This document shows, piece after piece, positions 2,772-25,527 of a DNA stretch of 64,000 nucleotides (the first letter of the stretch is position 1; each line of letters opens with the position of its first letter). The translations under genes and the position numbers were made by a program. The stretch comes from Onthophagus taurus (taxonomy: Eukaryota > Arthropoda > Insecta > Coleoptera > Scarabaeidae). The notes under the pieces are model-generated. The model searched no databases, had not been told where the DNA came from, and saw only the letters and a list, made by a program, of their open reading frames with translations. Location of the stretch: assembly GCF_036711975.1 (NCBI RefSeq), contig NC_091972.1, positions 18,109,001-18,173,000 on the forward strand, read 5' to 3'.

Positions 2772-3396
2772 TTTTCAATAATAAATGTAGTTATAAATCA
2801 TTAAATCAAACTTAGGTTATATGAAAAATCTTAGGTTAAGTTGTTTCGGTTTTAAATTAAAAATGTCAATAAGAGATGGCGGTACTCCTATTTCAATTTA
2901 TCAATCATTATTTCATTTTTTTAGTTATAAATCAGTTTCTTTATGAATTAAATCTGGATTTCATGATATATTGTTGCGAAATATGTTATAGAAATTGATT
3001 ATTAAATTAAATTTTTTTTAATAACATTATCCTATTTTATTTACATTTGATCATAATAGATGGCGCAAATTTAACCGGCAAAATTTAAATACTTTCTGCG
3101 TTTTAAGATAATGATTAAAAATAACTGTTGATAATACTTAATTAAACCAAACAAAATGTGATTTAGTGGAAAATTTTTAAACCTAACAATTTAAATTACA
3201 TTGTTAAGATAATTTAATCTTTTATGTACCTTTTGAATCAAAATAAATATTAAACTTCCCAAACCCATTATAAAACTATTATATTAATCTTAACAATAAG
3301 TTGTTGAGGACTTATTTCTAGTTTAGTCTTCAAGGTTATTTCAATGTACTTTAAAAATTCATTGAGTCAGTGTTCGTGAAGTTGTAAGTTAAAAAA
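2772..3396. promoter_or_regulatory. shared 5' region between divergent GATAD1 and EcKL
   Basis: This 625-bp AT-rich spacer separates two genes transcribed away from each other, so it must hold both promoters and 5' UTRs. An arthropod initiator-like TCAGT lies at 3367-3371, about 26 bases before the EcKL start codon. No convincing TATA box is seen on either side. Assigning the initiator is inference. Confidence 0.45.
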
Positions 3397-6300: not shown

Positions 6301-7134
6301 CTTGAGATACGATTTTTTAAAAAGTTCGTTATCCAACTTAACCTCTATAACTATTCAGACTTGAATTAAAAAAATCGTAAGATTGACATTTATGAAATCG
6401 AAAGAATTATATTTGGTGTGTTGAAACTTGATTATTTTTACTAAAAAATGGTTTTTACCTCGACTCGATATCTCAATTAGTTTAGGAGATATAATTTTTT
6501 AAAGTTGGAGTTTATAAATTTTACTCCTTATAAATGGAAAAGTATTAAAAAAATCATAACTTCAAAATTTATAGGTATAAAAAGATGTTAATTTACACAT
6601 CAAATATTAATTAAATTTACTTTAAAATGGTTTTTATTTCATGATAATATCTTACCTCGTTTTTGAGATACAAAGTTAAATTGTTCTTAATTTTTTCAGG
6701 AAGACGATGACGACAACCCTGTAAGAGTTTCATTTCTTGATTGGCAATTAACAAAAGTAACTTCACCAGTAATCGATCTTTCTTATTTAATTTACGGAAC
6801 TTGTGAATTAAAACAAATGGAAAAAATCGATTATTTCTTGAATTTTTATTACAACAAACTCGGTTTTTACATCAACTTACTTGGTAGTGATTTAAGTATG
6901 TTGTACCCAAAAGACGATTTTGATGAGGAATGGAGGAAGTTTTCCAGATATGGACTAGCATTGTCTACGATAGTCATTAAATTAACATTTACTGATCCCG
7001 ATGATGTCCCATTAAATAACAGCGAGAAAAAAACAATGCTCGAAAGTTTATCTTACAAAATTAAAAACGAAAAAAAATATATCGAAAGAATTAAATGTGT
7101 TATTAATCATTTTATTGAAAAGAAATATTTATAA
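3397..7134 (+). CDS. ecdysteroid kinase-like (EcKL / CHK kinase-like) protein
   Basis: Two exons, 3397-4146 and 6700-7134, join in phase 0 at GT...AG and encode 394 residues, close to the usual length of about 400 for this family. The phosphotransferase loop HGDLTLNNILF starts at residue 237 (Asp239 the likely catalytic base). The metal-binding motif, normally DFQ, is DWQ here with Asp264, just after the splice junction. An ELAHFHA motif lies further upstream. EcKL proteins are insect small-molecule kinases acting on ecdysteroids and possibly on plant or xenobiotic compounds; the substrate cannot be told from sequence. The 2553-bp intron sits between the two catalytic motifs and is filled by a tandem repeat. 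An AATAAA follows at 7158-7163. The stop codon is 2 bp from that of the next, convergent gene. Confidence 0.9.
4165..6690. repeat. 369-bp tandem (satellite-like) array filling the EcKL intron
   Basis: The word GCTACAAAATGGTTCTTATT recurs at 4413, 4782, 5151, 5520, 5889 and 6258, exactly 369 bases apart, with copies differing by only a few bases. Shorter, diverged partial copies sit at both ends (about 4180 and 6619) and merge with the intron edges. Each unit is itself dimeric: the half starting GCTACAAAATGG and the half starting ACTAAAAAATGG are related, and both carry the ATATCTCA...GAGATA inverted word. No coding potential is seen. Confidence 0.93.
7111..7116 (-). terminator. poly(A) signal of the 7137-7501 gene
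   Basis: TTTATT on the + strand is AATAAA on the minus strand, 21 bases beyond the TGA of the minus-strand gene and inside the last coding exon of EcKL. It is called by position and consensus only. Confidence 0.5.
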
Positions 7135-7136: not shown

Positions 7137-7501
7137 TCAATATTCGCTATAATCGTTAATAAATGCATCTTCATTCCAAAGAGGTAGACGATGTGACGGA
7201 GGCTTATTACGAATGGGGAATCTAATTTGACGACCAATATGAGCAGTTCTACGATTTCCAAATGGTGTATATTCGTGCCAAAACGAGGGTGGCATTAAAA
7301 TTTCCTCGCTGCTTTTAGCTACCGTAATTTTTGATTTTTCATTAAATACTTCGCCGGTTTTCATCGACCATCCTTCCTTATTTGTTGCTGAAAATACAGT
7401 TGTTAGTGTAACGAAGAAAAAAATAAAAATCTAAAAGAAAAGAAATCAATTTATTTTACTAACTTTAAGAATTAATAAATTACCTTGAATTGAAACAACA
7501 T
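7137..7501 (-). CDS. small secreted protein, unrecognised
   Basis: Exons 7484-7501 and 7137-7430 flank a 53-bp GT-AG intron in phase 0 and encode 103 residues. The product starts MLFQFK, followed by a hydrophobic stretch IFIFFFVTLTTVFS ending in small residues, a good signal peptide. The start at 7499-7501 is preferred because it puts the hydrophobic core at the N-terminus; an in-frame ATG lies nine codons upstream (7526-7528). The mature part is polar and aromatic (SFWHEYTPFGNRR, GRQIRFP, LPLWNEDAF), with one dibasic site and no cysteines. I do not recognise the family; a prohormone or a small cuticular or defence protein are both possible. It shares the tiny-first-exon layout of the cluster that follows, but not its low-complexity tail. 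A TATAT-containing stretch at 7592-7600 and a TCAGT initiator at 7573-7577 (minus strand) could be its promoter. Confidence 0.68.
7158..7163 (+). terminator. poly(A) signal of EcKL
   Basis: AATAAA lies 24 bases after the EcKL stop codon and inside the coding exon of the convergent minus-strand gene. If it is used, the two mRNAs overlap tail to tail. Confidence 0.55.
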
Positions 7502-7862: not shown

Positions 7863-8175
7863 TTATTTTCCCCATCCATGATGATGCGGGTGATGGTGAT
7901 GGTGGTGATGGTGATAATGACCATAATGTCCACCTCCATAATGACCATATCTAGATTCCGAAGTTTCTAAAGCGTCATCAATTTCAGCAGCGGGAAGAAC
8001 GAGTTCTGTATTAGGGATATTATCGATGCTAGCTGGCAAATTTTTTTCGTTTGCTGGATAAGACCAAACCATCACGAAGAATATACAAAATAAAATGATT
8101 ATCTGCAAAAAAGACACAAAAATAACTCTCATAAATAAAAATTAATTTCGTAAAAATCAAAAATATTACCTTCAT
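7863..8175 (-). CDS. secreted His/Gly-rich peptide, cluster member 1
   Basis: Exon 1 (8170-8175) encodes only Met-Lys; a 67-bp GT-AG intron follows; exon 2 (7863-8102) encodes the rest, 81 residues in all. Residues 2 to about 19 form a signal peptide ending MVWSYPANE. An acidic middle segment (NTELVLPAAEIDDALETSE) precedes a tail of GHYGGGHYGHY, eight histidines, PHHHGWGK. His-rich tails can bind metals, and His/Gly-rich antifungal peptides are known in beetles, so a defence role is possible but inferred. Signal peptide, acidic segment and promoter are shared with the genes at 9160 and 13845, which have quite different tails. A longer frame reading through the intron is not the real protein. 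Confidence 0.82.
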
Positions 8176-8245
8176 TTTAACAAATATTTCGTCTCTAAAG
8201 AATGGGTTAAGAAGAATGATTAAATATTCGTTGGTTTTATTGACG

Positions 8246-8253
8246 CTTATATA
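8246..8253 (-). promoter_or_regulatory. TATA box, cluster member 1
   Basis: TATATAAG on the minus strand, about 70 bases before the start codon. The surrounding bases (CTATATAAGCGTCAATAAA) are the same before the genes at 9160 and 13845, which supports a conserved core promoter. Confidence 0.65.
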
Positions 8254-9159
8254 GATGGTACCGCAGGAAGATCTTGTTTTTTATCTTTTTCTTAATTAGA
8301 ATAAAAACTTGTTATTTCGTAGAATTTGTTTTTGTTTGAGTATTTTTTTATGTGTGGTTAAAATGTTAATAAAAACAAAGATGTCATCGTTGGAGTGCTA
8401 CTTTACATAAAAAAATGCGGTTTGTATTAATCATGCACGATTCTAGGGTTTACTTTTCTTAATATAAATTTTTGCAAATGTTTTGTTATTCAAATCTTTA
8501 TATAATATAAGATTTATAGCAATTTCTGTAACATATTTTATGTAAAACTGTTCATCGCAAGATTTTCACCATCGAAAGTGCAATAGAGATGTAAAGAACA
8601 GGGATAAAGTGAATAAATAATCTAAATATAAATAATATAGTGGTAGAAGAACTGGAAAGAATAGAAAAATAACAGATGATAGAGATCAGTTATGCCATCT
8701 GCATTGAAAAAATGGCTCCAAAACACATTTAAGGAAAATACATCATACCATTCTACTTTAATTTCTGTCGCACACATAAATCCTAGAGTCTAGGATTCGT
8801 AGGACCTAAGAACCAATCAATTAATTCAAAAAGAAATCAAATACGAAAATCAGGTTTCAATATTTAACATCTATGACGTGTACAGAGATATTCCTGACAT
8901 ATACTAAAAAATACTAAACTTGAATATAGCTTAACCAAGACAAGTTTAAATGAGATAATCGCAGTTTGTAAACAAAATTTGTATAATTTCGAGAAATGTA
9001 TTGCAAACATCGCTTTCGCTGACGTTCCCAAAAACAAATTCGATTCAGTTTAACTTAAATATTCTTAAAAGTTGTAAAAAAGACAATGTATATATAATTT
9101 TTTAAATTTTTACTTTATTTAAGAAATAAAGAAATCGCAGGGTTTTTTATAAGATGTTC

Positions 9160-9429
9160 TTATTTTCCAAATCTCTGTGGTCGCTGTTCTTGCGGTTGGG
9201 GGGGCGGAGGTTGATAACGGCCTTCATAACCATCATATCTAGTTTCCGAAGTTTCTAAAGAGCCATCAACATCAATATCGATGCTAGCTGGTAAAATTTC
9301 TTCGTTTGCTGGATAAGACCAAACCATCACGAAGAATATACAAAATAAAATGATTATCTGCAAAAAAACACAAAAATAACTCTTATAAATAAACATCAAT
9401 TTCGTAAAAATCAAAAATATTACCTTCAT
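9160..9429 (-). CDS. secreted peptide with Pro/Gln tail ending QRFGK, member 2
   Basis: Exon 1 (9424-9429, Met-Lys) and exon 2 (9160-9357) flank a 66-bp intron and give 67 residues. The signal peptide is the same as in member 1 (MKIIILFCIFFVMVWS), followed by YPANEEILPASID. Compared with members 1 and 3 the acidic segment is shortened, missing the NTELVL part. The tail is RYDGYEGRY, then PPPPQPQEQRPQRFGK. The closing Gly-Lys resembles an amidation signal, which would give an RF-amide end, but no dibasic site precedes it and this remains speculation. Function unknown. Confidence 0.8.
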   Translation of the reverse strand: MKVIFLIFTKLMFIYKSYFCVFLQIIILFCIFFVMVWSYPANEEILPASIDIDVDGSLETSETRYDGYEGRYQPPPPQPQEQRPQRFGK

Positions 9430-9499
9430 TTTAACAAATATTTCGTCTTTAAAGAATGGTTTAAGAAGAATGACTGAATATTCGCTAGCTTTATTGACG

Positions 9500-9507
9500 C
9501 TTATATA
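9500..9507 (-). promoter_or_regulatory. TATA box, member 2
   Basis: TATATAAG on the minus strand, 71 bases before the start codon, in the same context as the boxes at 8246 and 14224. Confidence 0.65.
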
Positions 9508-10139
9508 GATGATACCGCAGGAAGATCTTGTTTTTGATGCTTTTTCTGAATTAGAATAAAAACTTGTTATTTCGCAGAATTTGTTTTTATTTAAGTATTT
9601 TACGTGATTAAAATGATAATAAAAAAGGCAGAAGTAAGATGTCATCGTTGGAGTGCTGCTTTACATTTAAAAAATGCAATTTGTATTAATTATGCACGAT
9701 TCTAGGGTTTGTTTTTCTTAATATAAAGTTATGCAAATAATTTGTTATTCAAATCTTTATATAATATAAGATTTATTGCAATTTTTATCAATTTCTCTAA
9801 CATATTTTAAAATGTAAAACAGAAGTGAAGATCAAGGATAAAACGAGGAAATAATTTAAATATCGTGGTTAAGAATAAATAATATAGTAGCAAAAGAACT
9901 GTAAAGAATAGAAAAATATTAGATGATAGTAAATTAGCTATGCCATCTGCATTAAAAAAATAGATCCAAAACAGATTTAAAGAAAACATATTATACCATT
10001 CTTCATAACTATTCTACTTTAATTTCTGCTTCACACATAAATCCTAGAAGAACCATAATATTCAACATCTATCACGTGTACAGAGATGTTTTAGACATAT
10101 ACTAAAAAATTTTGAAATTAAATAAAGGTTGACAGAAAC

Positions 10140-10920
10140 TGGAAAAAGTGGTAACAGGAGAGAGAAGCTGAAAAGAGATCTGCTACAACAAGAAATTAAA
10201 AAATTTGAAAAAAACATGTAATAGAAAATGGAGACTTAACAGAGACTAAAAAGTGATACTGCTAAATGGTAATATAAAAAAGAAACTGAAGGAAAAGCAA
10301 ACAGAGACTGGAAACAGACTGGTTATGGAAGAAAAAAGCTGAGCGTAATGTTGAGAGAGAAAAAAATGGTAGAGAAGAGATAATAAAGACCGGCAAGAAT
10401 TTGGTAATACAGGAAGATGACTGGTCAGAGACAGGATTGAGATAAAGTGGAAAAAACTGAGCAGAAAGTAGGGATTTAGAAGAAATACTAATATGTGGGT
10501 AGATAGAGAAGGGAGGTTGGACTCTTTCCAGCTGGTAATAGAAGAAAGATGCAGAACCGAGACTGAAAATACAGGAAGATGACTGGTAAGATTAGAAATT
10601 CACTTAACAGAGTATGAAAAGGATAAAAAGAAAGTGGCCAGAGAGAAGAGAGTCTGAACGGAGTCTGAAAACACAAAAGGCGGCCTAAACAGAAATTGGG
10701 AAAAGAAAGAAAAAATTAGATAGGAAAAAAGGAGACTGAAAACAGACTAGTAAAATGAGACTGGAAAAGAAAAAAAGCAGACTGGATATCAAACACACCT
10801 CAACACCTCGTGTTTCAGCAGAACCAAGAAATAGCTAAGAATAACGCTAGCGAAAGAAAAAAAACAGATACTGGAAAGAGAAAAAGGAGACTATGCAGAA
10901 AGGAGGGAAAATAGACAGAT
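10140..10920. repeat. purine-rich low-complexity tract
   Basis: Dozens of variants of GAAAGAGACTGG and AACAGAGACTGAAA follow one another on the + strand, with almost no pyrimidine runs. Related tracts lie at 12590-12951, 14880-15640, 16790-17370 and 17675-18240. Apparent Phe/Leu/Ser-rich frames on the minus strand are by-products of this composition. Confidence 0.75.
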
Positions 10921-10969
10921 ACTCTGCGTCTTCTTTCTTTCACCAGCTTCTCTTCATGTATTACTTATA

Positions 10970-12290
10970 CAGTGTGTCCGTAAAGTAACGGATATAGACG
11001 ATAAAATCATTATAAACAGCTTATGGAAAAATCCCTGAAACGGGTCTAAAGATTTAAATTTGTTGCAATTTTTTGGTATATATTTCAATTTTTTCCGCCA
11101 TTTTTGAACGAATTATGACATCATCGATATTTTTTTTAAATGGCAATCCTCCATTTTTATTACGAAATATCAAACAATATCTTTTTCTGAATCTAGTTCA
11201 CTCAATATTAATATTAGTTACATAAGAAATTTTTCGAGAAAAGTTACTTTAAAGATTAACTTCTTCAACTTCTTTGCTAACATGATAAAAATAGCAGTAG
11301 CCATAAGTAACTATGGTAACCAATTATTTTAAACAATTTCCTAAGTGTTTTTTCTAAGTTTTGAAAAATCAAAACATCCCCCTCCAGGTAAGGTTTCCTC
11401 ACAAAGTAGGAACTCAGGATAGTATCAAATACTATTTCGCTCCACACATAGATTTTTTGCGGGTATTGGGTGTGCGACTTTCTTGTCCAATGTGGATTTT
11501 GGGTAGCCCAATACCGACAATTTTGTCTATTTACTTGGCCACTCGATGTGTATGTCATCGGAAAAAATATATTTTTGACAAAGCCTTCGTCTTCGTAGCA
11601 AAATTGTTGTTCAAAAAGCTACTCACGACTCATTGATCGTGAATGAGGTTTACTTTATAGGAATAATATTTTGCAGTATTTAAAATTGTATGAACCGTTG
11701 ATTTTCTAATGTCCAAATTCGACCCAACACCCCTGACAATAACATAAGGAATTCCTTGCCCAGCCAAAACCACCTTTTGCTGAACCTTTCTTGAAACATT
11801 TGGTCGGGCAGACTTTGAGAAATATCGAAGATATCCATACTTTTTAAATTTAGTCACAGCTAGGCTTACCAACTGATGAGCTAAGCAGTTTTCAATCAGG
11901 AAATGTTGCATTAAGGAGGTGATTTAGTAACTAAATCATTTTTTGACACTTAGATAATTGTTTAAAATAGTCAATTAGTCAAGGCTAATGCTATTTTTAT
12001 CATGTCATCAAATTTGAAGTAGTTTAACTTTAAAGTAATTTCTCTGATGTAACCAATATTAATATTGACTGTACTAGATTCAGAAAAACATCGTCTTTCA
12101 TATTTCGTAATAAAGATGGGGGAATTCCATTTGAAAAGAATGTCGATGACGTCATAACTCGTTTAAAAATGGTTGAAAAAATTAAAATTTACACCAAAAG
12201 AATGCAAAAAAAATTTAAATCTTTAGACCCCTTTCAGACATTTTTCCACAAACCGTTTATAATGATTTTATTGCCTACATCCGCTACTTA
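10970..12290 (-). mobile_element. mariner-like element, internally deleted
   Basis: The left end starts CAGTGTGTCCGTAAAG after a TA at 10968-10969. The right end repeats the first ~280 bases inverted but lacks the outermost ~15 bases. Minus-strand fragments 11630-11911 and 11277-11560 resemble a mariner/IS630-type transposase: a helix-turn-helix part with STVHTIL and a segment with SSGQVNRQNCRYW. The two pieces are out of frame, a stop separates them, and the later catalytic region is missing, so it cannot act on its own. The matching position in the duplicate block (about 15664) lacks the insert, so it entered copy A after the duplication. Confidence 0.8.
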
Positions 12291-12590
12291 ATAATGAGAG
12301 TCACGAGAAAGGATTATTATAACTAAAGTTGAAAAAAATTGGAAATATCACTATTTTCAATTAATAGCAAATGCATTGTAAGCGAAGTTTATAACGTCTC
12401 GGTGGCAAGCAACCTCGGCTACTATCACTTTAACGGTGCAGATTATGGTAACAGGGTTGCTTACACTTTATAGTGATAGAACGTAGCGCCTCGGCCGCTA
12501 GCGACCTTGGCTAATATCTCTTTAATAGTTAACATTGTAGCGCCTCGGCCGCAAGCAACCTCGGCTAATATCTCTTTAATAGTTAAGTAA
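12291..12590. repeat. CTCGGC short tandem repeat
   Basis: About 53-base units built on GCGCCTCGGCCGCAAGC and CTCGGCTAATATCTCTTTAA occur at least twice here, with diverged copies before them. Similar pieces lie at 15733-15780 and 16596-16700. No gene is seen. Confidence 0.6.
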
Positions 12591-12951
12591 AGAAACTAAA
12601 CAGGATTTGGAAAAAGAAGAAAGAGCATTGATAATGAGAAAGGAAATTTGAAAGATTCTGCAAAGGAAAGACTAGGATTAGACGTATGTCTGGTTACTGG
12701 AAGTATGATGTCTAAAAAAAGACTAATTGTAGAAGAAGAAGAATGAACAGAACTTGAAAAGAGAAGAAAGAGCTAGGACGGAAAGAAAGGAGGCTGGAAA
12801 GAGACTAATAATGAAAGTAAGAAATTGGTCAGAGACTAGCAGAAAGTAAAGAGACTGATAACAGACTAGTAACAAAAAATGATGCCGAACAGGCACTGGA
12901 AATGGTAATGGAAAGATTAAAATTAGACATAGAAGAAAATGGCTGAAATTA
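12591..12951. repeat. purine-rich block duplicated at 17675-18030
   Basis: This block, from AACAGGATTTGG to AAATGGCTG, is nearly the same as 17680-18030, showing that the two ends of the peptide cluster have exchanged or copied intergenic DNA. Confidence 0.75.
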
Positions 12952-13844
12952 AAGATCTTGTTTTTTATCTTTTTCTTAATTAGAATAAAAACTTGTTATT
13001 TCGTAGAATATGTTTTTGTTTGAGTATTTTTTTATGTGTGGTTAAAATGTTAATAAAAACAAAGATGTCATCGTTGGAGTGCTACTTTACATAAAAAAAT
13101 GCGGTTTGTATTAATCATGCACGATTCTAGGGTTTACTTTTCTTAATATAAATTTTTGCAAATGTTTTGTTATTCAAATCTTTATATAATATAAGATTTA
13201 TAGCAATTTCTGTAACATATTTTATGTAAAACTGTTCATCGCAAGATTTCCACCATCGAAAGTGCAATAGAGAAGTAAAGAACAGGGATAAAGTGAATAA
13301 ATAATCTAAATATAAATAATATAGTGGTAGAAGAACTGGAAAGAATAGAAAAATAACAGATGATAGAGATCAGCTATGCCATCTGCATTGAAAAAACAGC
13401 TCCAAAACGCATTTAAGGAAAATACATCATACCATTCTACTTTAATTTCTGTCGCACACATAAATCCTAGAGTCTAGGATTCGTAGGAACTAAGAACCAA
13501 TCAATTAATTCAAAAAGAAATCAAATACGAAAATCAGGTTTCAATATTTAACATCTATGACGTGTACAGAGATATTCCTGACATATACTAAAAAATACTA
13601 AACTTGAATATAGCTTAACCAAGACAAGTTTAAATGAGATAATCGCAGTTTGTAAACAAAATTTGTATAATTTCGAGAAATGTATTGCAAACATCGCTTT
13701 CGCTGACGTTCCCAAAAACAAATTCGATTCAATTTAACTTAAATATTCTTAAAAGTTGTAAAAAAGACAATGTATATATAATTTTTTAAATTTTTACTTT
13801 ATTTAAGAAATAAAGAAATCGCAGGGTTTTTTTATAAGATGTTC

Positions 13845-14153
13845 TTATTTTCCAAATCTCTGTGGTTGCTGTCCTTGCGATTGGCGGGGCGGGACTCTAT
13901 AACGAACATATCTAGTTTCCGAAGTTTCTAAAGAGCCATCAACATCAATTTCATCAGCGAGAAGAACGAGTTCTGTATTAGCGATATTATCGATGCTAGC
14001 TGGCAAAATTTCTTCGTTTGCTGGATAAGACCAAACCATCACGAAGAATATACAAAATAAAATATTCTGTAATAAAATATTCTGTAAAAGAACACAAAAA
14101 TAACTCTTATAAATAAACACCAATATCGTAAAAATCAAAAATATTACCTTCAT
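13845..14153 (-). CDS. secreted peptide ending QRFGK, member 3
   Basis: Exon 1 is 14148-14153 (Met-Lys). Exon 2 ends at 13845 and has two in-frame acceptors 15 bp apart, exon start at 14081 or 14066, because the acceptor plus AATATTTTATTA is duplicated. The product is 80 or 75 residues. The signal peptide and YPANEEILPASID are shared with member 2. The acidic NTELVLLADE segment is kept, as in member 1. The tail is RYVRYRVPPRQSQGQQPQRFGK without the poly-Pro of member 2. Function unknown; secretion is well supported by the signal peptide. Confidence 0.78.
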   Translation of the reverse strand: MKVIFLIFTILVFIYKSYFCVLLQNILLQNILFCIFFVMVWSYPANEEILPASIDNIANTELVLLADEIDVDGSLETSETRYVRYRVPPRQSQGQQPQRFGK

Positions 14154-14223
14154 TTTAACAAATATTTCGTCTTTAAAGAATGGTTTAAGAAGAATGACTG
14201 AATATTCGCTGGCTTTATTGACG

Positions 14224-14231
14224 CTTATATA
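14224..14231 (-). promoter_or_regulatory. TATA box, member 3
   Basis: TATATAAG on the minus strand, 71 bases before the start codon, same context as members 1 and 2. Confidence 0.65.
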
Positions 14232-14879
14232 GATGATACCGCAGGAAGATCTTGTTTTTGATGCTTTTTTTGAATTAGAATAAAAACTTGTTATTTCGCA
14301 GAATTTGTTTTTGTTTAAGTATTTTATGTGATTAAAATGATAACAAAAAAGGCAGAAGTAAGATGTCATCGTTGGAGTGCTGCTTTACATTTAAAAAATG
14401 CAATTTGTATTAATTATGCACGATTCTATTGTTTGTTTTTCTTAATATAAAGTTATGCAAATATTTTGTTATTCAAATCTTTATATAATATAAGATTTAT
14501 TGCAATTTTTAGCAATTTCTCTAACATATTTTAAAATGTAAAACAGAAGTGAAGATCAAGGATAAAATGAGGAAATAATTTAAATATCGTGGTTAAGAAT
14601 AAATAATATAGTAGCAAAAGAACTGTAAAGAATAGAAAAATATTAAATGATAGTAAATTAGCTATGCCATCTGCATTAAAAAAATAGATCCAAAAGAGAT
14701 TTAAAGAAAACATATTATACCATTCTTCATAACTATTCTACTTTAATTTCTGCTCCACACATAAATCCTAGAAGAACCAATCACTTAATATTCTACATCT
14801 ATCACGTGCACAGAGATGTTTTTGACATATACTAAAAAATGCTGAAATTAAATAAAGGTTGACATAAACTGGAAAGAGT

Positions 14880-15640
14880 GGTAACAGGAGAGCGAATCTG
14901 AAAAGACATCTGCGACAACAAGAAATTAAAAAATTAAAAAAAAACTTGTAATAGAAAATGGAGACTTAACAGAGACTGAAAAGTGATACTGCTACTAGTA
15001 ATATAAGAAAGAAACTGAATAAAAAGCAAACAGAGACTGGAAACAGACTGGTTATGGAAGAAAAAAGCTGAGTGTATTGTTGAGAGAGAAAAAATGGTAG
15101 AGAAGAAAAGATAAAGACCGGCAAGAATTTGGTAATAGAAAAAGGTGACTGGAGAGACCGGATTAAGAAGAAACAGCGAGAAAAACTGAGCAGAAAGTAA
15201 GAGTTTAAAATAAAAACTAATATATGGAAGAGAAGATAAGTTGGTCTCTTTCCAGCTGGTAATAGAAGAAAGATGCAGAACCGAGACTGAAAACACAAGA
15301 AGATGACTGGTAAAATTAGAAATACACTAAACAAAGTATGAAGAAAGTGGCCAGAAAAAAGTGAGTATGCACAGAGTCTGAAAACACTAAACGGCGGCCG
15401 AAACAGAAACTGAGAAAAGAAAGAAAAAATTAGATAGGAAAAAAGGAGACTGAAAACAGACTAGTAATAGAAGAGATTAAAATGAGACTGGAAAAGAGAA
15501 AAGGCAGACTGGATATCAAATACTCACCGCCACACCTCGTGTTACAGCAGAACCAAGAAATAGCTAAAGTAGCGCTAGTGATGGAAAAAAATAGATAATG
15601 GAAAGAGGAAAAGGAGACTATCGTCTTTTTTCTTTCACCA
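14880..15640. repeat. purine-rich low-complexity tract, copy B
   Basis: Duplicate of the tract at 10140-10920. The two overlapping Ser/Phe/Leu frames on the minus strand (14934-15334) arise from the purine bias and are not called. Confidence 0.72.
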
Positions 15641-15719
15641 GCTTTCCTTCATGTCTTACTTATACAAAAGAAACTCAACAGGGAGTGGGAAAGAAGAAAA
15701 AATTATATTTTCAATTAAA

Positions 15720-16780
15720 ATTGGAAAAAATTGTGGCGCCTCGGCCAATATCACTTTAACGGTGTAGATTATAGCACCAGGCACCATGCAGGGAATACTT
15801 GAACTTGTCGCCTACCACTGAAATACAATCAATTAAAAAAGGAATTTCCATTCCTCATATGAAAGTTTCATGTGCCAGATCAAAATATGAGGCTAATATT
15901 AAATCAGTATTTTAAAATTACTGTTAAGTAAACTAAATGCAGCATTTGTAACGATTTTATCTGATGCATCAAATCATAATAAAACCAAATTGTATCTATC
16001 TACTTAAAAAATTCGCTACTTAGACCACAACACAACTTATAGATAGCTTCCTATAATACCAGGACTCTATAATAGGATCAAAAACTACTAGAAATGAAAG
16101 AAGATGTCCTAAACATAAAATTGCACATCGCGGATATGAACAAGGTGTAACGAAGAGGCGAAAGTCAATTAACGCTAAAGTCAGAACGATACGAGGATGT
16201 ATTGGAAGGAGGAGTAGGATTATATTTCATAAGAAACACGTATCAGATATAATAGTCATTAAAGCAATGAGCCCTGATTTTGACAAACTAAATTCCAAAT
16301 ACAATCTTCAATGGGTGACAATGGATATGAGGATAAAGCAACTTGTTTGCAATGATCTCTTTCTTTAATAAAACCCCAACATAATGGACATGGGCCAGTT
16401 CGAAAAAAGAAACAAAATTGACTTCTCTATCACGGATAAAAAAAATCATAAAAGATTTCTTGCTCCAAAATTTCCAATATATTGTTCGAAAATGATATAT
16501 TAAACGTTTCATTTATTTACGTTGTACATTTTTATTAAATTTTGTTGTCCCCCTTTTCATTGTAAAAAAATTGGTCACCTTATCATTGACGGTTTACGTT
16601 GTAGTGCCTGCGTAGATTATAGCACTTGAGTAAATATCTTTTTAACGAAATAGAACGCCACGATCTCTTTGTCTCGATTTTAAGCGACCTCAGCTACACC
16701 TCACTTTGTTTTTTTCCATTGTAGCCTGTGTTGCTTACTACGCTTTATCGAGATGCAATATAGGATTGTTAATAGCAGAA
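15720..16780. mobile_element. fragment of the hAT element seen at 20724-22574
   Basis: Read on the + strand, 15800-16320 corresponds to the minus strand of 21037-21970. It includes the hAT-type fragment with FHVSCARSKYEA-like coding and the LINE endonuclease piece ERYEDVLEGGVG at about 16175-16210, with several frameshifts. The end near 16700-16745 (TTTCCATTGTAGCCTGTG) recurs at 17620-17650 and 20970-21000. It is a dead copy. Confidence 0.62.
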
Positions 16781-16789
16781 AAATACTAA

Positions 16790-17370
16790 ACAGGATTTTG
16801 GAAAAAGTAGAAAGAGTATTGGTAATGAGGATGGAAATTTGAAGAATGCTGTAAAGGAAAGAATAGGATTAGACGTATGTCTAGTTACTGGACGTGTGAT
16901 AGCTACCAGAACCTGGAAAGAGAAGAAAGAGATCGGACAGAAAAAAGGGGTCAGTGTTGATTGTGTAATCCATTTTAACAGTATTATATTAAATGTAAAC
17001 GATGAAAATTATAATCAATTTATTTTTTGTACTAAACATAAATTGATTATAATTTTCATCGTTTACAGAAAAAAGGGGGACTGGAAAAAGACTAATAGTG
17101 AAAGAAAAAGACTGACCAGAGACTGGCAGAAAGTAACGAGACTGATAAGACACTAGTAATAGAAGAAAGAGACCGAATAGGGACTGAAAATAGAAGAAGA
17201 AGCCTTTACAATGAAGGAAGTAGTTGGAAAAAGACTGTAAAGGAAGAAATAGAACCAGATATAGAAGAATATGGCTGTAAAGAAACCGCTACTTAAAAAA
17301 GGAAAATGAATTGAGCCTGAAAAGGCAAGAAAGAGACTGGACGGAATGAAAGGAGACTGGAAATAAACGA
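16790..17370. repeat. purine-rich tract with a hairpin insertion
   Basis: AGAAAGAGACTGG-type sequence related to 12591-12951 and 17675-18240, interrupted by the insertion described next. Confidence 0.65.
16951..17064. mobile_element. 114-bp hairpin insertion with 14-bp direct repeats
   Basis: The insert is flanked by ACAGAAAAAAGGGG at 16937-16950 and 17065-17078. Inside, 16995-17022 and 17039-17066 are perfect 28-base inverted repeats around a 16-base loop. The related tract at 17860-17880 has a single uninterrupted copy of the flanking word. Short direct repeats suggest insertion of a small element or a repair event. Confidence 0.65.
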
Positions 17371-17373
17371 TAG

Positions 17374-17608
17374 CGTAACTTCATCTACATTCTTAAATCT
17401 TTTATTATTTCATTACATATAAAATAAAAATTGTGAAAAATTATAAGAAAAACTGTAATTTTATCACCATCTCCATACCACGTGTCAAGACCATCCCCAT
17501 CCATGATAACCTCATCCACGATGACCCCATCCGCTGTATGGCTGTATCTTCGTCTAACCAATCCACCCCATCCTCCCCATACCAAAGCAGATTCTGCAGT
17601 TTCCAACT
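17374..17608 (-). pseudogene. broken copy of the Gly/Trp-rich peptide gene
   Basis: The coding part from LETAESALVWGGWGG through the 3' flank is nearly the same as 18240-18480. The signal-peptide exon and the first half of exon 2 are absent, the junction with unrelated sequence is at about 17608, and a frameshift after GG turns the Gly/Trp repeat into a different frame. It cannot make the secreted peptide. Confidence 0.8.
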
Positions 17609-17674
17609 TTTCACTTTGGTGGTTTCCATTGTAGCCTGTGTTGCTTACTATTTATTGCCATCTTTGCTAATAGA

Positions 17675-18240
17675 AGAAAGAGACTAAACACGATTTGGAA
17701 AAAGCGAAAGAGCATTGGTAATGAGAAAGGAAATTTGAAAGATTCTGCAAAGGAAAGACTATGACTAGACGTATGTCTGGTAACTGGACATATGATGTCT
17801 AAAAAGAGACTAATTGTAGAAGAAGAAGAATGAACAGAACTTGAAAAAGAAGAAAGAGATCGGACGGAAAAAAAAGGGGGCTGGAAAGAGACTAATAATG
17901 AAAGTAAGAAACTGGTCAGAGACTAGCAGAAAGTAAAGAGATTGATAAGAGACTAGTAAAAAAAAATGATGCCGAACAGGCAGAAATGGTAATGGAAAGA
18001 TTAAAATTAGACATAGAAGAAAATGGCTGGAACTAAACAGAGTCTGAATAGAAAGAAGGAGGTTGCAGAAATAGAGATTTAAAGGAAAGAAAGAGATTAA
18101 AAGGAGAAGAAAGAAGCTGGTTAGAAAGGAGAAAGTCCAAAGGAAAGCTGTAAAGAGACTGCTACTAGAAAATGGAGAATGAATAGATCTTGAAAAGGAA
18201 AGAAAGGAGACTGGAACGAGACTGGTAATAAAAGATAGAG
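17675..18240. repeat. purine-rich low-complexity tract
   Basis: Near-copy of 12591-12951 in its first 350 bases; the rest is more GAGACTGG-type sequence. No gene is seen. Confidence 0.7.
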
Positions 18241-18329
18241 CATCTTCATCTACATTCTTAAATCTTTTATTATTTCATTACGTATAAAACAAAAAATGTG
18301 AAAAAATTATAAGAAAAGGTGTAATTTTA

Positions 18330-18680
18330 TCACCATCTCCATACTACGTGTCGAGGATATCCCCATCCATGATAACCCCATCCACGATGACCCCATCCAC
18401 CATGTCCCCATCCACCGTATCTTCGTCTATACCCACCCCACCCCAATCCTCCCCATAACAAAGCAGATTCCGCAGTATCCAATTTTTCCTCATCATCAGA
18501 ATCGTTCGTTTGTTTTATTTGAACATTTTCAGAACTATTTGGATGTTTATCGAAGCGAGTTTCATCCCGTTGAAATGACCAAGTTATAGAGGTCAACGCC
18601 AAAATTACTATGGATAATAATAGCACCTAAAAAAAAATTATTAAATATTGGTGAAAAATATGGTTTATTATTACCTTCAT
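18330..18680 (-). CDS. secreted Gly/Trp-rich peptide
   Basis: Exon 1 (18675-18680) encodes Met-Lys and exon 2 (18330-18626) the rest; the 48-bp intron has GT-AG ends and the product is 100 residues. The signal peptide is VLLLSIVILALTSITWS. A polar, acidic segment of about 40 residues (SDDEEKLDTAESALLWG) precedes a tail of GYRRRYGGWGHGGWGHRGWGY units ending HVVWRW. Gly/Trp/Arg/His-rich tails of this kind occur in insect cuticular, silk-like and antimicrobial peptides; which applies here cannot be decided. It shares the TAES/TAET spacer with the gene at 19272 and the promoter context with that gene and the one at 25153. Confidence 0.82.
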
Positions 18681-18741
18681 GTTCTTTTGAATATTAACGT
18701 TGATTGAAGAAGAATAATAGTGGAAAATGAATAAGTTCGAT

Positions 18742-18749
18742 TATTTATA
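18742..18749 (-). promoter_or_regulatory. TATA box of the Gly/Trp gene
   Basis: TATAAATA on the minus strand within TTTACTATAAATA, 62 bases before the start codon. The same 13-base string precedes the genes at 19272 and 25153. Confidence 0.72.
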
Positions 18750-18780
18750 GTAAACTTGAAGTAGTATTAGTTAATAAAAA

Positions 18781-19249
18781 TAAATTATTTCCTAGAACTA
18801 TTTTCTTGTTGTAAGTACGTCATTGGTGTTAAAATCATAATGGAATTTACGAGAAAATGACACATACTATAATATAAGGAAATACCGGGAGATTTCTTTA
18901 AATGAGTTATACTTTGTTTACTGAATCGGGTTTGATTTAAAATAGATGTTTTGGTGTTAATTTTATTAAAATGAATTTGAGTTATAATCAACTAATTTAA
19001 CTGCACAAAGTTAAATTAGATGTGATTTAATTTATAAGAATCATCGTGTATATATTCAGTAAAGTTATGCTAAAATTTATAGGATTTTTATTACCCAATA
19101 ATTAAACCGTTTTACAACCACAATATTTCTTGTAACACACCTAAAGTATCAAGATGATTTGAATGGGATATAAATAAATAATAAAAAATATGTTTTTCTT
19201 TCTATTAATGTATTTAACAACTCTAAATTAGTTAATATTTAATTATTTA
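18781..19249. other. intergenic AT-rich DNA
   Basis: Spacer between two Gly/Trp genes. A 68-codon frame at 18785-18991 has no recognisable feature. Nothing else is seen. Confidence 0.5.
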
Positions 19250-19271
19250 TTGATTGATGGAGGAATTATTT

Positions 19272-19620
19272 TCACCAGCCATATCGATTCCATCCACCGC
19301 GGTGACCCCATCCGCCATATCCCCGTCCATATCCACCCCATCCACCATATCCTCTTCTGTAACCACCCCATCCTCCCCATCCACCCCATCCAAATTTACC
19401 AAATCCAGCTGTTTCTGCCGTTTCTAATTGGTCCCCAGCTAAGTCAATCGATTTTGATTCCGAATTTTCAAGATTTTCTGATAGAATTTTATGATTTGGA
19501 AATGAACAAACAACCGAAATCAATATTAACACCATGATGGATAACAAAAATAACTAAAAAATTAAAAAAGAAAGATTATAAGATAAACATAACTTGACCA
19601 AACAGATTTTTTACCTTCAT
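19272..19620 (-). CDS. secreted Gly/Trp-rich peptide, second copy
   Basis: Exon 1 (19615-19620) encodes Met-Lys and exon 2 (19272-19553) gives a total of 95 residues; the intron is 61 bp. The signal peptide is LFLLSIMVLILISVVCS. A polar spacer (LENSESKSIDLAGDQLETAETAG) leads into FGWGGWGGWGGYRRGYGG, then WGGYGRGYGGWGHRGGWNRYGW. It is paralogous to 18330-18680 but clearly diverged. It is probably secreted; the role (cuticle or immunity) is unknown. Confidence 0.82.
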
Positions 19621-19702
19621 TTTTTATTCCCAACAAGAAAACTGAGTTGTTGCCAAAGTCGTAAAATTGAACAATTGTTACTAAAAACGAAACGGATTTC
19701 AA

Positions 19703-19710
19703 TATTTATA
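19703..19710 (-). promoter_or_regulatory. TATA box of the second Gly/Trp gene
   Basis: TATAAATA within TTTACTATAAATA on the minus strand, 83 bases before the start codon. Confidence 0.72.
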
Positions 19711-20723
19711 GTAAACCAGAAGTGGTAAAGTCGGTTTATTCTACTTTTGTCTTTGTTTCTTTTTTACTTGTTAATTTATTTCCGATTTAGCATAATTGCT
19801 ACCTTAAAGACTAATTTTTTTCTACGAAACGCATTATAACAGAATTCCTAATCTTTTTATGAATAAAAATCACATCGTCTTTTATTATAACTTTTATTAT
19901 TTAATTATTTTATACTTCTTCACGTAAATAGATTTATATCTATTTCTTTTTATAGATCGTAAAAATGATATCTAGAAAAGTTACACATCAATTTCAAGAA
20001 GAAATCTTTATGATTTCGTTGTTTATTTTATTTAATAAAAAACATCAAATAAGATTGCATATTATTTAAATCATTAAATACTTTTTTATTGCAAGATAAA
20101 CAAATATCCTTGAATATCCTCTCAATGACTCGGGTCATAACAAATAATTATTAAATTTGACGCAAATTGTTTACCTTTTTATGACATGATATTGACCTAA
20201 TCCACAAATCATTCAATTTAACCTTGATTGGTTTTGTTATTCTTTTTTATTTTTAATTTAAATTTCATAAAAAATGGGTTTGGTTGTTTACAAAATTTCT
20301 TTTTTGTTATTTGAGATTTGAACTTGGAAAATTCCGCGATGTTTAATTTTTAGAAGTGTTTATCAAGATTTCAAAAAATTATTTAATATTATTTTAATGA
20401 CTTTTTAAAAAATTCCTGATTGTATTATAGATTTTAAAGTAATTTAGAGTTTGTGGGAAAATCAATTAAAAAGAATTCCGCAAACTTCGATTGCTCTCTT
20501 AATTTAAACATTTTCACCGCATTCGGATAACCCGTTGAAGTCTTCCTACAGAAATGGGGCTCCTTTTCATTAAGAGTATTTTTTTTTACTAAATGAAGTT
20601 ATATTGAAAAGTTTTTGATATTATTACAAAAAATTTTAACCCATCTTGGCGCTATACATTTTCTGGTTGAAATTTTTTGATGACTCTAACAGAAGAGACT
20701 AATAATAGGTCAAAATAGACAAC
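19711..20723. other. AT-rich intergenic DNA
   Basis: No gene, RNA or transposon is recognised between the Gly/Trp gene promoter and the hAT terminal repeat. Confidence 0.5.
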
Positions 20724-21036
20724 TAGTGGTGGAACGGATATCCGGCAACTATCCGGTATCCGGCCTATCCGGCTATTTTTTAAAATCCGGATAGCGGATA
20801 GTTACCAAATATCCGGTCAAAGCCTGTCTCTTTTTAGCCATCATACGTCTAGTCTTTCCTTTGATGAATCTTTTATATTTCCTTTCTCATTAAGAACGCT
20901 CTTTCTTTTTTTTCCAAGTCCTGTTTAATTTCTTTCTTTTATTATCAATTCTATATTGTATACCGATAAAGAGTAGTAAGCAACATAGGCTACAATGGAA
21001 ACCAACAAAGTGAAAAGTTGGAAACTGTAATCTACT

Positions 21037-21402
21037 TTAATCGCCCATTAAATTTTCTGATTGATCTTGTTTTGTCCCCAGTTTGGAATTAAAGTCATTT
21101 GTCAAATGTGTAGTTAGCACACTGTCCTTGCAGGGCCATATCAATATCATCATAGAATTGGTCAAGTTCTTCTTCTGAACGTGATGTAGGAGCGTATAAC
21201 CTTGTGTCCCTATAACCTTGAGATTGCATTTGGAATTTAGTTTGTCAAAATCAGGGCTGATTGCTTTAATGACTAATATATCTGATACGTGTTTCTTATG
21301 AAATATAAATCCTACTCTTCCTTCCAATACATCCTCGTATTGATAAATTGAAATAGGTGTCCTGACTTTCAGAAGAGATCCGCGATGTACCTCTTCTTTC
21401 AT
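21037..21402 (-). pseudogene. LINE endonuclease fragment
   Basis: Blocks such as GRVGFIFHKKH, ILVIKAISPD, CNLKVI and (after a frame change) FNSKLGTKQDQSENLMG match the APE-type endonuclease of RTE-like LINEs, often annotated as craniofacial development protein 2-like. It is frameshifted in the middle and lacks both ends. It lies inside the hAT element. Confidence 0.7.
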
Positions 21403-21791
21403 TTCTAGTAATTTTTGATCCCATAGTAGAGTTCTAGTATTATAGGAAGCTATCTATAAGTTGTGTTGTGGTCTAAATAACAAATTTTTTCTTCCTCCAG
21501 ATCTAATAAGACTATCCTTTGTAGATCCTTTGTAGATTTGCCCATTTCCTTTATTTTCAAAATTCGCCATTTGTGGGGTATTTGGCCGTATTGTTCCACA
21601 TTGGTCATGCAGGTTGGAAGAAGGTAAGGGATATTGAAAAGGAAATTGCAGATTTCGATAGGAAAGCTAAGGATTTATCAAAGTAATAGATGAGTATCTA
21701 CCCGCTACCTTAGCATTAGATAGATAAAATTTGTTTTTATTATGATTTGATGCATCAGATAAAACCGTTACAAATGCTGCATTTAGTTTAC

Positions 21792-22070
21792 TTAACAGTA
21801 ATTTTTAAATACTGATTTAATAATAGCCTCACATTTTGTTCTGACACATGAAACTTGAGCATTGAAGTTTTTCAATAATTTAGTTGTACAATCCATACAC
21901 AAAAACTTTGATTGTGAATTGTAGTAGAAAATGCAAATGTTCCCTGCATTGTAGTTAATTGTTTTTATCTTTAGAATAATTAGAAGTTTCAAAAAAATTG
22001 TTACTTTGCTATTGGAAGCTGATGCATCTAATGATTGCTTATGTGTGTTGGTGTTCACGTGATTCGTTAT
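21792..22070 (-). pseudogene. hAT transposase N-terminal remnant
   Basis: The frame includes CMDCTTKLLKNF and CVRTKCEAIIKSVF, recognisable from the region after the BED-type finger in hAT transposases. The finger itself is suggested by an HVNTNTHKQSL-like end. The dimerisation and catalytic parts are missing. Confidence 0.6.
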
Positions 22071-22639
22071 AACTGGTCTGGCACCAACTGCAATACAAAA
22101 TTCTTCTCTGCAAATATTGCAGAAAACAATGGTGTATTTAATTGATTACGGTGGTTTTCCGAATAGTAACGTCACATGAAAAAATAACACAATATGAGTA
22201 TGAAAAAGTGTTAATAAAAGTGTCCTCTTTCCAATGAACCAACCCGTTTTGAAAAATAACTTAGTTTTTGAGAAAACAATATTTGAAGTTTTGATAAAAT
22301 TTTCGATGTTGCAATCCTTGTGGAAATATCGCCAATTATTAATTAAAGTATCCTCGTTTTAGAGTTGTCAAAAAAGTTCATTTTGTATCTTGGATCCAAA
22401 TAAGTTGACATATCTTATCAACTTTCTTATTAATTTTGATTCAAATATAGCAATAATGTGGCAATAGGGTATCACTTCAGAAATGCACCAGAAATTATAA
22501 CCATAATATCCGGATAGATATGCCGAATATCCGGTATCCGGCTTTTCGCATAATCACTATCCGTTCCATCACTAATGTGTACTATATGTTGGACGGTGGG
22601 CATTCGGGTTGCTCTTATTTTTTGTATTATTCTAGAGGT

Positions 22640-23565
22640 TCCTGGTTAAACGAGGCTTTGATTTAAGGCTGGTAGAAAACTTCGATTCTTTGGCCGTTTT
22701 TCCACCAGAGAATGCTTGCGGAGATCAAACCGTTGAAGATTCTGGAGAGGAGGATGCAACAAACCTAAATAATTTGCCTGGACCACAACTTTAAGCTCCA
22801 GTTGAAATAAATTTCTTCAGACGACGAAATTCCTCTTTCAGTCTTGAGAGTAAAGAAAGCAAGAGTAGAAAAAATACGAAAAATGGAAAAGTTATAAATG
22901 GACGGATAACGACGTGGAGCCTAATAACATAATTTTTAATGGCCAAGTTGATGAAAATGACAGCCATATAAGCTCTTTGGAGCTATTTTCACTTTTCTTT
23001 GATGTGAAATAGTGGATCTAATAGTAATCGAAAGTAATCGTAATAAAAGCATTCATAGATGTACTACTACTCAGTGGATACATGCAAGCACCAAGAAGGA
23101 GTATGAAAGAGACAGTCAAAATGTGTTGGTGTCTGAAGCAATAAGTCGAAATAATTTTGAATATTATGTCCCATTTTCATCTTGCAGATACTACTAAAAT
23201 AGAAGCAAGAGAGAAATTCGCAAAGATTAGGCCTTTATTCCAACATCTACATAAAAATTTTTTAGAAAGTAGTATTTGCGAGGAGATGAATTGCGTTGCT
23301 GAACTCATGATACTAAAAAGAATTGCCACCACACTGCTATTACAGAATAAAAAATAGAAGCATTCCTCAAGAGGACATACGTCACGCAATGAAGGTATAT
23401 ATATTCGATTTGATCACAAGGACCACTACATCATACCTCAAGATAAGCAAACTAGATGCATTCATTGTCATCAGAAGACCATCACTAGATGATTGAAGTG
23501 TGAAAAGGGCCTACACGTGAAGTGCTTCCTTTCGTATCATACACAAACTAACAATTAGGTTTGTT
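22640..23565 (+). pseudogene. piggyBac transposase remnant
   Basis: Pieces in several frames follow piggyBac order: EPNNIIFNG (about 22915-22945), an acidic LFFDVEI and VIESNRNKSI segment (to 23060), MSHFHLADTTKIEAREK and KIRPLFQHLHKNFL (23160-23270), then RFDHKDHYIIP, RCIHCH and GLHVKCFLSYH (23405-23545), the C-terminal cysteine-rich domain. The DDD core between them is largely deleted. Many stops are present, so it is inactive. Confidence 0.75.
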
Positions 23566-23689
23566 ACTCCTTAAATGACCAGCGTACTATATATAGTACG
23601 GCTTGAACTTTGTATTTTTCAAAATAAATTCAACATCTACTCATAAACAACCACCAAATTTGTATGGGCATATTTGAGTTCAACTTGTA

Positions 23690-23960
23690 GTAAATACAGA
23701 TTCATAAATGTTTGTCATACTTATCGCAGCATTTTAGATGCAAATGCATATTGCATTTTTTACAAATAAATGGACTATGCACATGGCATATTTTACAACG
23801 ACGTCTCATTTTGATATTTGACTGAATATGATTTTTCTGTTTTGCACTTGGAAATGATAAATGTGACGTTCGTGATGAAGTAGGTGCAGAATCGGCATAA
23901 TCCATTGACAAATCTTCAGCCAACAGAAGATCTCTGCAATAGCACTTCTAAATATTAACT
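23690..23960 (-). pseudogene. second piggyBac C-terminal fragment
   Basis: On the minus strand, MRRRCKICHVHSPFICKKC and MHLHLKCCDKYDKHL form the cysteine-rich C-terminal domain of a piggyBac transposase, preceded by a linker with PSAKQKNH. It faces the previous remnant tail to tail and belongs to a different, more AT-rich copy. Confidence 0.65.
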
Positions 23961-24234
23961 GATCCATTACTGGAGCCTTTTCATAGTTTTAAATTAGTAT
24001 ATGTTATTTCCATGCGTTGTCACGAAGATATATTTTTTTGCTTTTCATATCATCATAATATATCTTCTATCAGTTTCAAATGGTAAAACAGAAGAAAAGT
24101 TAGATAGTACAGTTACATTGACATTATCTTTTGGCAAAGACTAGAGGGCAAAGAAAAGAAGAGAAAAAAAACGTAAAACTCATTCTAACGAAAATTTATA
24201 AGCTCTATTTATTATTGAAAATAAGAACAAAAAT

Positions 24235-24335
24235 GATGATTTCTTGGTAAAATGTAAGATTTGTAGTGGACGATCTTCTATAGCAAAACATATTGAAACA
24301 ATGAAACACAAATCACATCTAAATGCAAAAGGTTG
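24235..24335 (+). pseudogene. zinc-finger remnant, transposon-derived
   Basis: The frame VKCKICSG...IAKHIETMKHKSHL has a CX2C...HX4-5H pattern like the BED or related fingers of DNA-transposon proteins. Stops lie close on both sides and no further domain is seen. Confidence 0.4.
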
Positions 24336-24640
24336 ATATCCAAATTATGGAAATGTTTTAAAGCTGGGGAATTTGAATCAAATTGTAAAAACTTAATTAT
24401 GGAAGGAACTTTGCTATACTAACAAAATAATAAAAAAGTTTGTTGATACTGAATGTTCTTGTAAAAAAACTAAATTTTGCTAAATTTAAAGCGTATTGCA
24501 AAGAAATGTTATTCTAAGAATGAAATCATAAAGAAATTACATCGAATTAAATCAAACAAGACATTTGTTTAAAAATGTGCCCAATCAATCCTTATAAACA
24601 TTTATTATTAATATTATAACTGAGATATGATACTATATAA

Positions 24641-24843
24641 CAGTGGTGTCCATAACGTCGATCGCGAAGCCATTTTGAGTCGATCGCCAACAAAATTTGA
24701 ATCTGAAATATCTATATCTGGACCTCAGAGCCAAAAAAAGGAAGGTTAGTTTTAAAATATAAAAAAAGATTTTAAACCCTTCGGTCGATTTAAGACATTT
24801 ATATAAAAAGTCGATCTTGATCAAACATTAGTGGACACCACTG
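24641..24843. mobile_element. 203-bp hAT-type MITE with intact target duplication
   Basis: The ends are CAGTGGTGTCCA and its exact inverse, flanked by the same 8 bases, CTATATAA, at 24633-24640 and 24844-24851. An 8-bp duplication and CAGTG ends are typical of hAT elements. It has no coding capacity. Confidence 0.9.
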
Positions 24844-25055
24844 CTATATAATAATTGTAAACAAAATAAATTTCAATAACACTTTTCAATGTAACTTTTA
24901 ATTTCAATATCAACGGTAGTTGAACACCTAAACCTTTGATCGTCGATGATTTACTGTTGTTTGTCTATCACCATACGACAAGTTTTTCTTTATAAAAATT
25001 CCGTTTTTCAAATTACACCTTAATTTAATTTAACATGTAGAAGGGCACGTTTTAC

Positions 25056-25063
25056 TATAAATA
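25056..25063 (+). promoter_or_regulatory. TATA box of the Gly/Tyr gene
   Basis: TATAAATA within TTTACTATAAATA, 90 bases before the start codon. The 13-base string is the same as upstream of the two minus-strand Gly/Trp genes. An initiator-like TCAGT follows at 25101-25105. Confidence 0.75.
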
Positions 25064-25152
25064 CAAAACAAAACTCCATACGAAATCATAACAACTTGTA
25101 TCAGTATCAAACTACTCTTGACAAATATACAAATAATAACAAAATATTCATC

Positions 25153-25527
25153 ATGTTAAAGGTAAAAAATATAAAATATTATAAAAAAAAAATCTTTATC
25201 ATCAATTATTTTTAGATTTTCCTTTGCACCACCTTATTTTTTGCCATTGCTTGGTCATATCCAGCTGAGCAAATATCTAAAAGAGATGATTATGGTGGAT
25301 TGGGAGGATTAGGCGGATTAGGAGGATATTATGGTGGTTTAGGAGGAGGATATTATGGAGAATTTTTAGGAGGAAGTTACTTGGGTTATGGAGGTTATGG
25401 GGGATATGGTGGATATGGTGGATTAGGAGGATTAGGTGGATATGGAACTGGAATGGGAGGAGGTGGTTATGGAAGAAGAAGTCCTAATTATGGTGGAAAT
25501 CGCAGAACTGGTGGATATTGGTGGTAA
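25153..25527 (+). CDS. secreted Gly/Tyr-rich peptide
   Basis: Exon 1 (25153-25161) encodes Met-Leu-Lys; after a 54-bp GT-AG intron, exon 2 (25216-25527) completes 106 residues. The signal peptide is IFLCTTLFFAIAWSYPAEQ, resembling the MVWSYPANE junction of members 1-3, so this gene links the two sub-groups. After KRDD the rest is Gly/Tyr/Leu repeats (GGLGGLGG, YGGYGGYGGYGG) and a basic end RRSPNYGGNRRTGGYWW. The KR after the signal peptide could be a processing site. Similar Gly-rich proteins are found in insect cuticle, silk and immune responses. An AATAAA overlaps the region just after the stop. Confidence 0.85.

Follow-up and report, generated by a model that had tools for sequence, protein, structure and literature searches.

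Six clustered genes for short secreted low-complexity peptides in Onthophagus taurus, tentatively an antimicrobial-type family

A 17.7-kilobase (kb) interval in the genome of the dung-feeding beetle Onthophagus taurus carries six intact gene models, all with two exons and built alike, and one broken copy, and the six genes would encode short secreted peptides with low-complexity tails. The interval occupies positions 7863-25527 of the window, the whole 64,000-nucleotide stretch that was analysed (C7:18109001-18173000), and positions below refer to this window. We tentatively read the cluster as a young, locally duplicated and diversifying family of antimicrobial-type secreted peptides that may work like the nlp-29 cluster of Caenorhabditis elegans. 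Peptides of the cuticle are a close rival, nearly as likely.

In each model exon 1 encodes only Met-Lys or Met-Leu-Lys (ATGAAG in genes A, B, C, E and F; ATGTTAAAG in gene G), followed by a phase-0 GT-AG intron of 67, 66, 66, 48, 61 and 54 base pairs (bp) in A, B, C, E, F and G, respectively. Five genes lie on the minus strand. Gene A (7863-8175; exon 1 8175-8170, encoding MK; exon 2 8102-7863) has 81 residues and a His-rich tail ending in HGWGK, while gene B (9160-9429; exon 1 9429-9424, exon 2 9357-9160; 67 residues) and gene C (13845-14153; exon 1 14153-14148, exon 2 14081-13845; 80 residues) both have tails ending in PQRFGK. Gene E (18330-18680; exon 1 18680-18675, exon 2 18626-18330; 100 residues) and gene F (19272-19620; exon 1 19620-19615, exon 2 19553-19272; 95 residues) carry Gly/Trp/Arg tails. 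Gene G, on the plus strand (25153-25527; exon 1 25153-25161, encoding MLK; intron 25162-25215; exon 2 25216-25527), has 106 residues, a Lys-Arg site after a short spacer and a Gly/Tyr/Leu tail. The broken copy D (17344-17612, minus strand) is what remains of an E-like gene, its 3' half together with the adjoining 3' flank. Over 280 alignment columns it is 85% identical to E, with 11 gap positions that break the frame; in that alignment it lacks exon 1, the intron and the signal part, and the genome search with E as query finds internal stops in it. Front halves are common within sub-groups and tails are unlike, being glycine-, histidine- or tryptophan-rich. The original prediction for this DNA, which had claimed six intact genes, one broken copy, a tiny exon 1 and phase-0 introns of 48-67 bp, is thus borne out on every count in the sequence, and the six introns are probably spliced as modelled. 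Exon 2 of gene C opens with a AATATTTTATT block that is nearly duplicated (14060-14085, minus strand), which creates two in-frame candidate splice acceptors (MK|NILLQ|NILFC).

Chance open reading frames were rejected as the source of the gene models. A strict scan for ATG plus zero to two codons, a short GT-YAG intron and a hydrophobic core (hydropathy cut 2.4) returned five genes in the window, A, B, C, E and F, with no further candidate there and no match in 10 windows simulated with a first-order Markov model. Gene G was missed at this setting; its hydropathy in a looser scan is 2.34. The looser scan of 264 contiguous kb gave 15 candidates, namely the six genes, a neighbor at 7501 and eight others, compared with 7, 1, 2, 3 and 3 in five simulations. 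Signal peptides were called by hydropathy alone, and since both scans were devised with the genes already known, they show that no further candidate of such strength lies nearby and do not give an unbiased probability.

Five of the six predicted precursors share a layout of signal part, acidic spacer and basic or His-rich tail. With spacer and tail borders placed by eye, the net charge of the spacer is -7, -7, -10, -6 and -5 and that of the tail +2, +2, +6, +6 and +6 in A, B, C, E and F, respectively, and the motif directly before the tail reads LETSES, LETSET, LETSET, LDTAES and LETAET in the same order. In G, a 9-residue spacer ending in Lys-Arg precedes a nearly neutral tail (+1). Cysteine is absent after the signal part in all six. 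The tail of A holds 14 His in 29 residues and 24% Gly, and the other five proteins are not His-rich. No Pfam family exceeded its cut-off for any of the six proteins, coleoptericin and other antimicrobial peptide models included; F came closest, scoring 25.8 bits with GRP (glycine-rich protein family), whose cut-off is 30. NCBIfam, which consists of bacterial and archaeal models (queried with A, B, E, F and G), and a sequence search of the PDB with F returned nothing useful.

In the cuticular alternative, the peptides would be small glycine-rich cuticular or other structural proteins whose tails would be built into cuticle or into an egg or gland coat, with His and Tyr serving in cross-linking or metal binding. 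As general background, first exons of two or three codons are usual in cuticular genes, and the original prediction had noted first exons of a few codons there. The documented part is narrower: of 24 cuticular genes in the honeybee, 14 have a first exon described as relatively small (PMC3766229). A small first exon was accordingly rejected as a novelty by itself. The same source reports a signal peptide, GGY or GGYGG runs, high Gly content and a Cys-free mature part for honeybee cuticular genes, a description which fits E, F and G with their 34-50% Gly, GGY runs and mature parts free of Cys. Against this stand the B and C tails with only 12% and 9% Gly, and that of A, which is intermediate and has no GGY run, leaving none of the A-C tails more than partly Gly-rich. 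In addition, none of the six proteins has a Pfam cuticle family listed, and an acidic spacer with a basic tail, as found in five of six, or Pro/Gln or His tails ending in FGK or WGK, are not the usual layout of such proteins.

A different reading of the same tails is that the genes encode amidated neuropeptide-like precursors. The terminal Gly-Lys of A, B and C, absent from E, F and G, would permit C-terminal amidation to ...HGW-amide or ...PQRF-amide, and G has its Lys-Arg site. We consider this role highly unlikely, as A-C lack a dibasic site that would release the peptide and as the tails are the most divergent part of the coding sequence. For the RFLamide precursor, it is the peptide that is stated to be the better conserved part (PMC7179676).

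Genes A, B and C are plain duplicates of one another, and E, F and D group together (49% identity between E and F). What connects these two sub-groups is the motif before the tail. The pattern L[DE]T[AS][EN][ST] occurs in 6 of 910 stop-to-stop open reading frames of at least 60 residues in the 264 kb, those of A, B, C, D, E and F, and is absent from G. Gene G is tied to E and F by a 13-base core promoter sequence, TTTACTATAAATA, found three times in the 264 kb, upstream of E (18742-18754, minus strand), F (19703-19715, minus strand) and G (25051-25063, plus strand), and not at all in 10 simulations; both the motif and the 13-mer were spotted first and counted afterwards. Counted genome-wide, GTTTACTATAAATA has 16 copies, two of them at E and F, against 13 for a reversed control, so that the sequence as such is not special. 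Genes A-C have a core promoter box of their own, CTATATAAGCG, whose three copies in the 264 kb lie upstream of A (8244-8254, minus strand), B (first base 9508) and C (first base 14232). In addition, G and A-C have WSYPA in common at the likely signal cleavage site. The original prediction had let a YPANE/YPAEQ junction link the sub-groups across both strands. The link holds for A-C and G and fails for E and F, which read WSFQ and CSFP at this place, and the junction was therefore dropped as the sole family link. Based on these comparisons, we hold with fair confidence that A-F belong to one family; that G is part of it is likely, on weaker grounds.

Whole-genome protein searches (290,825,966 bases in 33 contigs) with A (expect value, E, up to 0.001) and with C, E, F and G (E up to 10) returned cluster members and two weak outside matches. 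This supports the view that the short secreted low-complexity peptides come from a cluster built up through local duplication, although the search scores the best candidates only and could miss more Gly-rich relatives. One outside match, of C on contig C6, has E = 1.2 with 39% identity over 31 residues. The other, the distant relative L046, lies 13 Mb from the cluster (C7:5061467-5061901) and was found from gene E with E = 1.2, and with 0.02 in the reverse search. It resembles the cluster genes in having a signal part, an acidic spacer (net -14), LDTANT followed by GFGYGGWGGYR and a basic Gly/Tyr tail; it differs in a spacer about twice as long, matches only weakly, and within 1.3 kb upstream of it no first exon of four codons or fewer was found.

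Gene C is a recent duplicate of B. A segment at 8268-10941, containing B, recurs at about 12952 to about 15650 with C, the two copies lying about 4.7 kb apart and being about 99% identical near the genes. At its far end (10051-10941), which by eye is rich in purine repeats, identity falls to about 91%. Counted in 81-bp steps, the copies differ at 9 of 891 bases in the 3' flank (8269-9159) and at 13 of 648 on the near 5' side (9403-10050), together 22/1539. In the tail there are 10 mismatches in 69 bases and a 12-base gap (Fisher p = 3e-7 for 10/69 against these near flanks). Kept outside this near-flank test were the far end and the stretch at 9241-9402, which covers the remainder of exon 2 with most of the intron and has 8 mismatches in 162 bases with gaps of 39 and 12 bases. 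When near and far flanks are taken together, the tail still differs from them (p = 9e-4). Between A and B, the tail differs at 30 of 81 positions, as opposed to 101 of 769 in upstream, intron and 3' DNA (p = 4e-7).

Genes that are clustered, secreted and fast-diverging with few relatives in the genome also have the usual profile of reproductive or exocrine gland secretions. The peptides could then come from an accessory gland, a brood-ball gland or a defensive gland, and sexual or ecological conflict could drive their tails apart. We regard this as distinctly unlikely; no feature of the sequence points to a gland or to sex.

The antimicrobial look of the cluster comes from peptides that would be secreted, from the clustering and recent duplication of their genes, and from an acidic spacer joined to basic Gly/Trp/Arg, His or Pro/Gln/Arg tails. 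In the reading that we tentatively favor, the signal peptide would begin in the first exon of two or three codons, and in A, B, C, E and F it would be followed by an acidic spacer closed by L[DE]T[AS]E[ST] and by the basic or His-rich low-complexity tail. The peptides might be secreted at a barrier tissue such as epidermis, gut or gland, with the acidic spacer keeping the tail quiet until the spacer is removed. The tails would then bind microbial surfaces and act as antimicrobial, probably antifungal, effectors, those of A-C possibly amidated at their terminal Gly-Lys, and the set of effectors would diversify through duplication and change of the tails. What the sequence shows is the gene anatomy, the motif and promoter links, the clustering, the charge layout and the difference of the tails from their near flanks; splicing, processing, tissue and antimicrobial action are what we infer. 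A more specific version, which we think unlikely, is a host-defence locus in which signal, acidic spacer, LETAE-type hinge, core promoter and 3' end stay constant while the mature tail is exchanged wholesale and tuned to dung microbes. The exchanged tail types would be His-rich, Pro/Gln-Arg (its RF end amidated), Gly/Trp-Arg and Gly/Tyr. Cassette-like turnover of this kind is known in cone-snail and frog-skin peptides.

The nearest described analogue that we found is the nlp-29 cluster of C. elegans, likened here by layout and not by homology. It consists of six Gly/Tyr-rich antimicrobial peptide genes in about 12 kb and is reported to have undergone adaptive diversification (PMC2453101). Six small secreted peptide genes in 17.7 kb, grown by local duplication and diversified, resemble this arrangement of small secreted Gly-rich peptide genes. 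The O. taurus cluster is unlike it in having an acidic spacer with a LETAE-type motif and His or Pro/Gln tails. Furthermore, adaptive change was inferred for nlp-29, while silent sites in the O. taurus tails change as much as others. Among beetle peptides, holotricin 3 and tenecin 3 are known for their His content. Both are among the Gly-rich antimicrobial peptides of beetles listed in PMC4874388, and compared by description gene A alone resembles them, as a beetle gene with a secreted, Cys-free Gly/His tail; the neighbors of gene A have unlike tails. The original prediction had pointed to antifungal or cuticular peptides, and either role is plausible.

Several observations weigh against an antimicrobial-type family. 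In the whole-genome protein searches A-C, D-F and G do not retrieve one another, so that a single family rests on the motif and promoter links and not on sequence search. Gene G has no acidic spacer, and the A-C translations have no dibasic site between spacer and tail at which the spacer could be removed. Tails rich in Gly and Tyr are just as characteristic of cuticle proteins (PMC3766229). Within the six 600-bp upstream regions, strict NF-kB-type sites number 1 where about 1.6 are expected, loose ones 8 where about 16 are expected and GATA sites 9 where about 13 are expected; this lack of enrichment of immune promoter sites also favors the cuticular alternative. Ecdysone-response, grainyhead and FTZ-F1 motifs are absent from the same regions, with an expectation near zero. 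As for the tails, those of B and C diverge at 10/69 bases, no more than the repetitive far end of their duplicated segment does (79/837, p = 0.20). Silent and replacement rates in the tails, from few sites in a partly arbitrary alignment, are 0.167 and 0.167 for B/C, 0.417 and 0.425 for A/B, and 0.553 and 0.450 for A/C, so that silent changes are as frequent as those that change an amino acid. These figures do not support clean positive selection on the tails. The tails outpace adjacent DNA in the manner of low-complexity DNA, and slippage, conversion or replacement of such DNA fits the pattern as well as selection does.

As far as we found, the cluster is a new set, judged from open-access literature, although its genes may carry automatic annotation in the public assembly. 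Small lineage-restricted families of low-complexity secreted peptides are a known kind. The consulted portions of open-access literature on beetle antifungal, cuticle, amidated-peptide, nlp-29-type and dung-beetle antimicrobial peptides do not describe the cluster, and no paper was found in open-access literature text for six tail and spacer strings. The main text of a Copris transcriptome paper (PMC9979532), in the portion consulted, does not contain the words holotricin, glycine or coleoptericin.

Adjoining gene A, at 7137-7501 on the minus strand, is a small secreted-protein gene of similar build (103 residues). Its exon 1 encodes MLFQFK (7501-7484), a 53-bp phase-0 intron follows, and exon 2 starts at 7430; its middle part is basic and peptide-hormone-like (SFWHEYTPFGNRRTAHIGRQIRFPIRNKPP). 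A genome search with this gene finds only itself, and Pfam gives no match at E up to 0.01. Further out, six tandem copies with a 369-bp period, 93-96% identical to the first copy, fill 4332-6476. They are flanked by ecdysteroid kinase-like coding pieces at 3388-4224 and 6691-7134, so the repeat probably lies inside an intron of that gene. Between B and C, an element at 10983-12289, possibly a mariner-type relic, has inverted arms of 82 and 169 nucleotides and inner open frames that resemble transposase pieces. Inverted duplicate segments at 15863-16307 and 21221-21856, 90-97% complementary, flank the E/F group, and a perfect 30-base inverted repeat with a 14-base loop at 16994-17067 looks like a tiny palindromic insertion.

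Beyond the cluster, a large SCAPER exon has its splice acceptor and opening bases (AG|GTTGTTGAAATTTA) present three times, in tandem 173-bp copies at 26913-27431, the third of which continues into the long open frame. Transposase pieces with the Pfam domains HTH_38 and DDE_Tnp_1_7 lie at 34584-35249 and 42555-42983, both on the minus strand, and dispersed repeats around GGCTAAACCCGAATGTTTCTAGTTCTAG, in direct and inverted copies, at 41600-47700 and 63400-63620. Elsewhere in the genome, TTGGG repeats occur in 5 of 11 contig-end stretches, three of the other six begin with runs of N, and no TCAGG telomere pattern was found. According to PMC8233369, databases show the TTGGG motif for O. taurus and two further scarabaeoids, and its presence in a fourth has been confirmed. 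Outside beetles the motif is known from a lacewing. The exact pattern of one myosuppressin decapeptide has one match in the genome, compared with at least three O. taurus genes reported (PMC6585902).

If the peptides are cuticular, the cluster would be one more small lineage-restricted family of cuticle genes. Should the tails prove antimicrobial, the locus would be a compact and recently expanded source of peptides in a dung feeder, with tails open to direct synthesis and assay. The B/C pair, with its near surroundings about 99% identical, would then offer a clean case in which selection, slippage and conversion can be set against one another.

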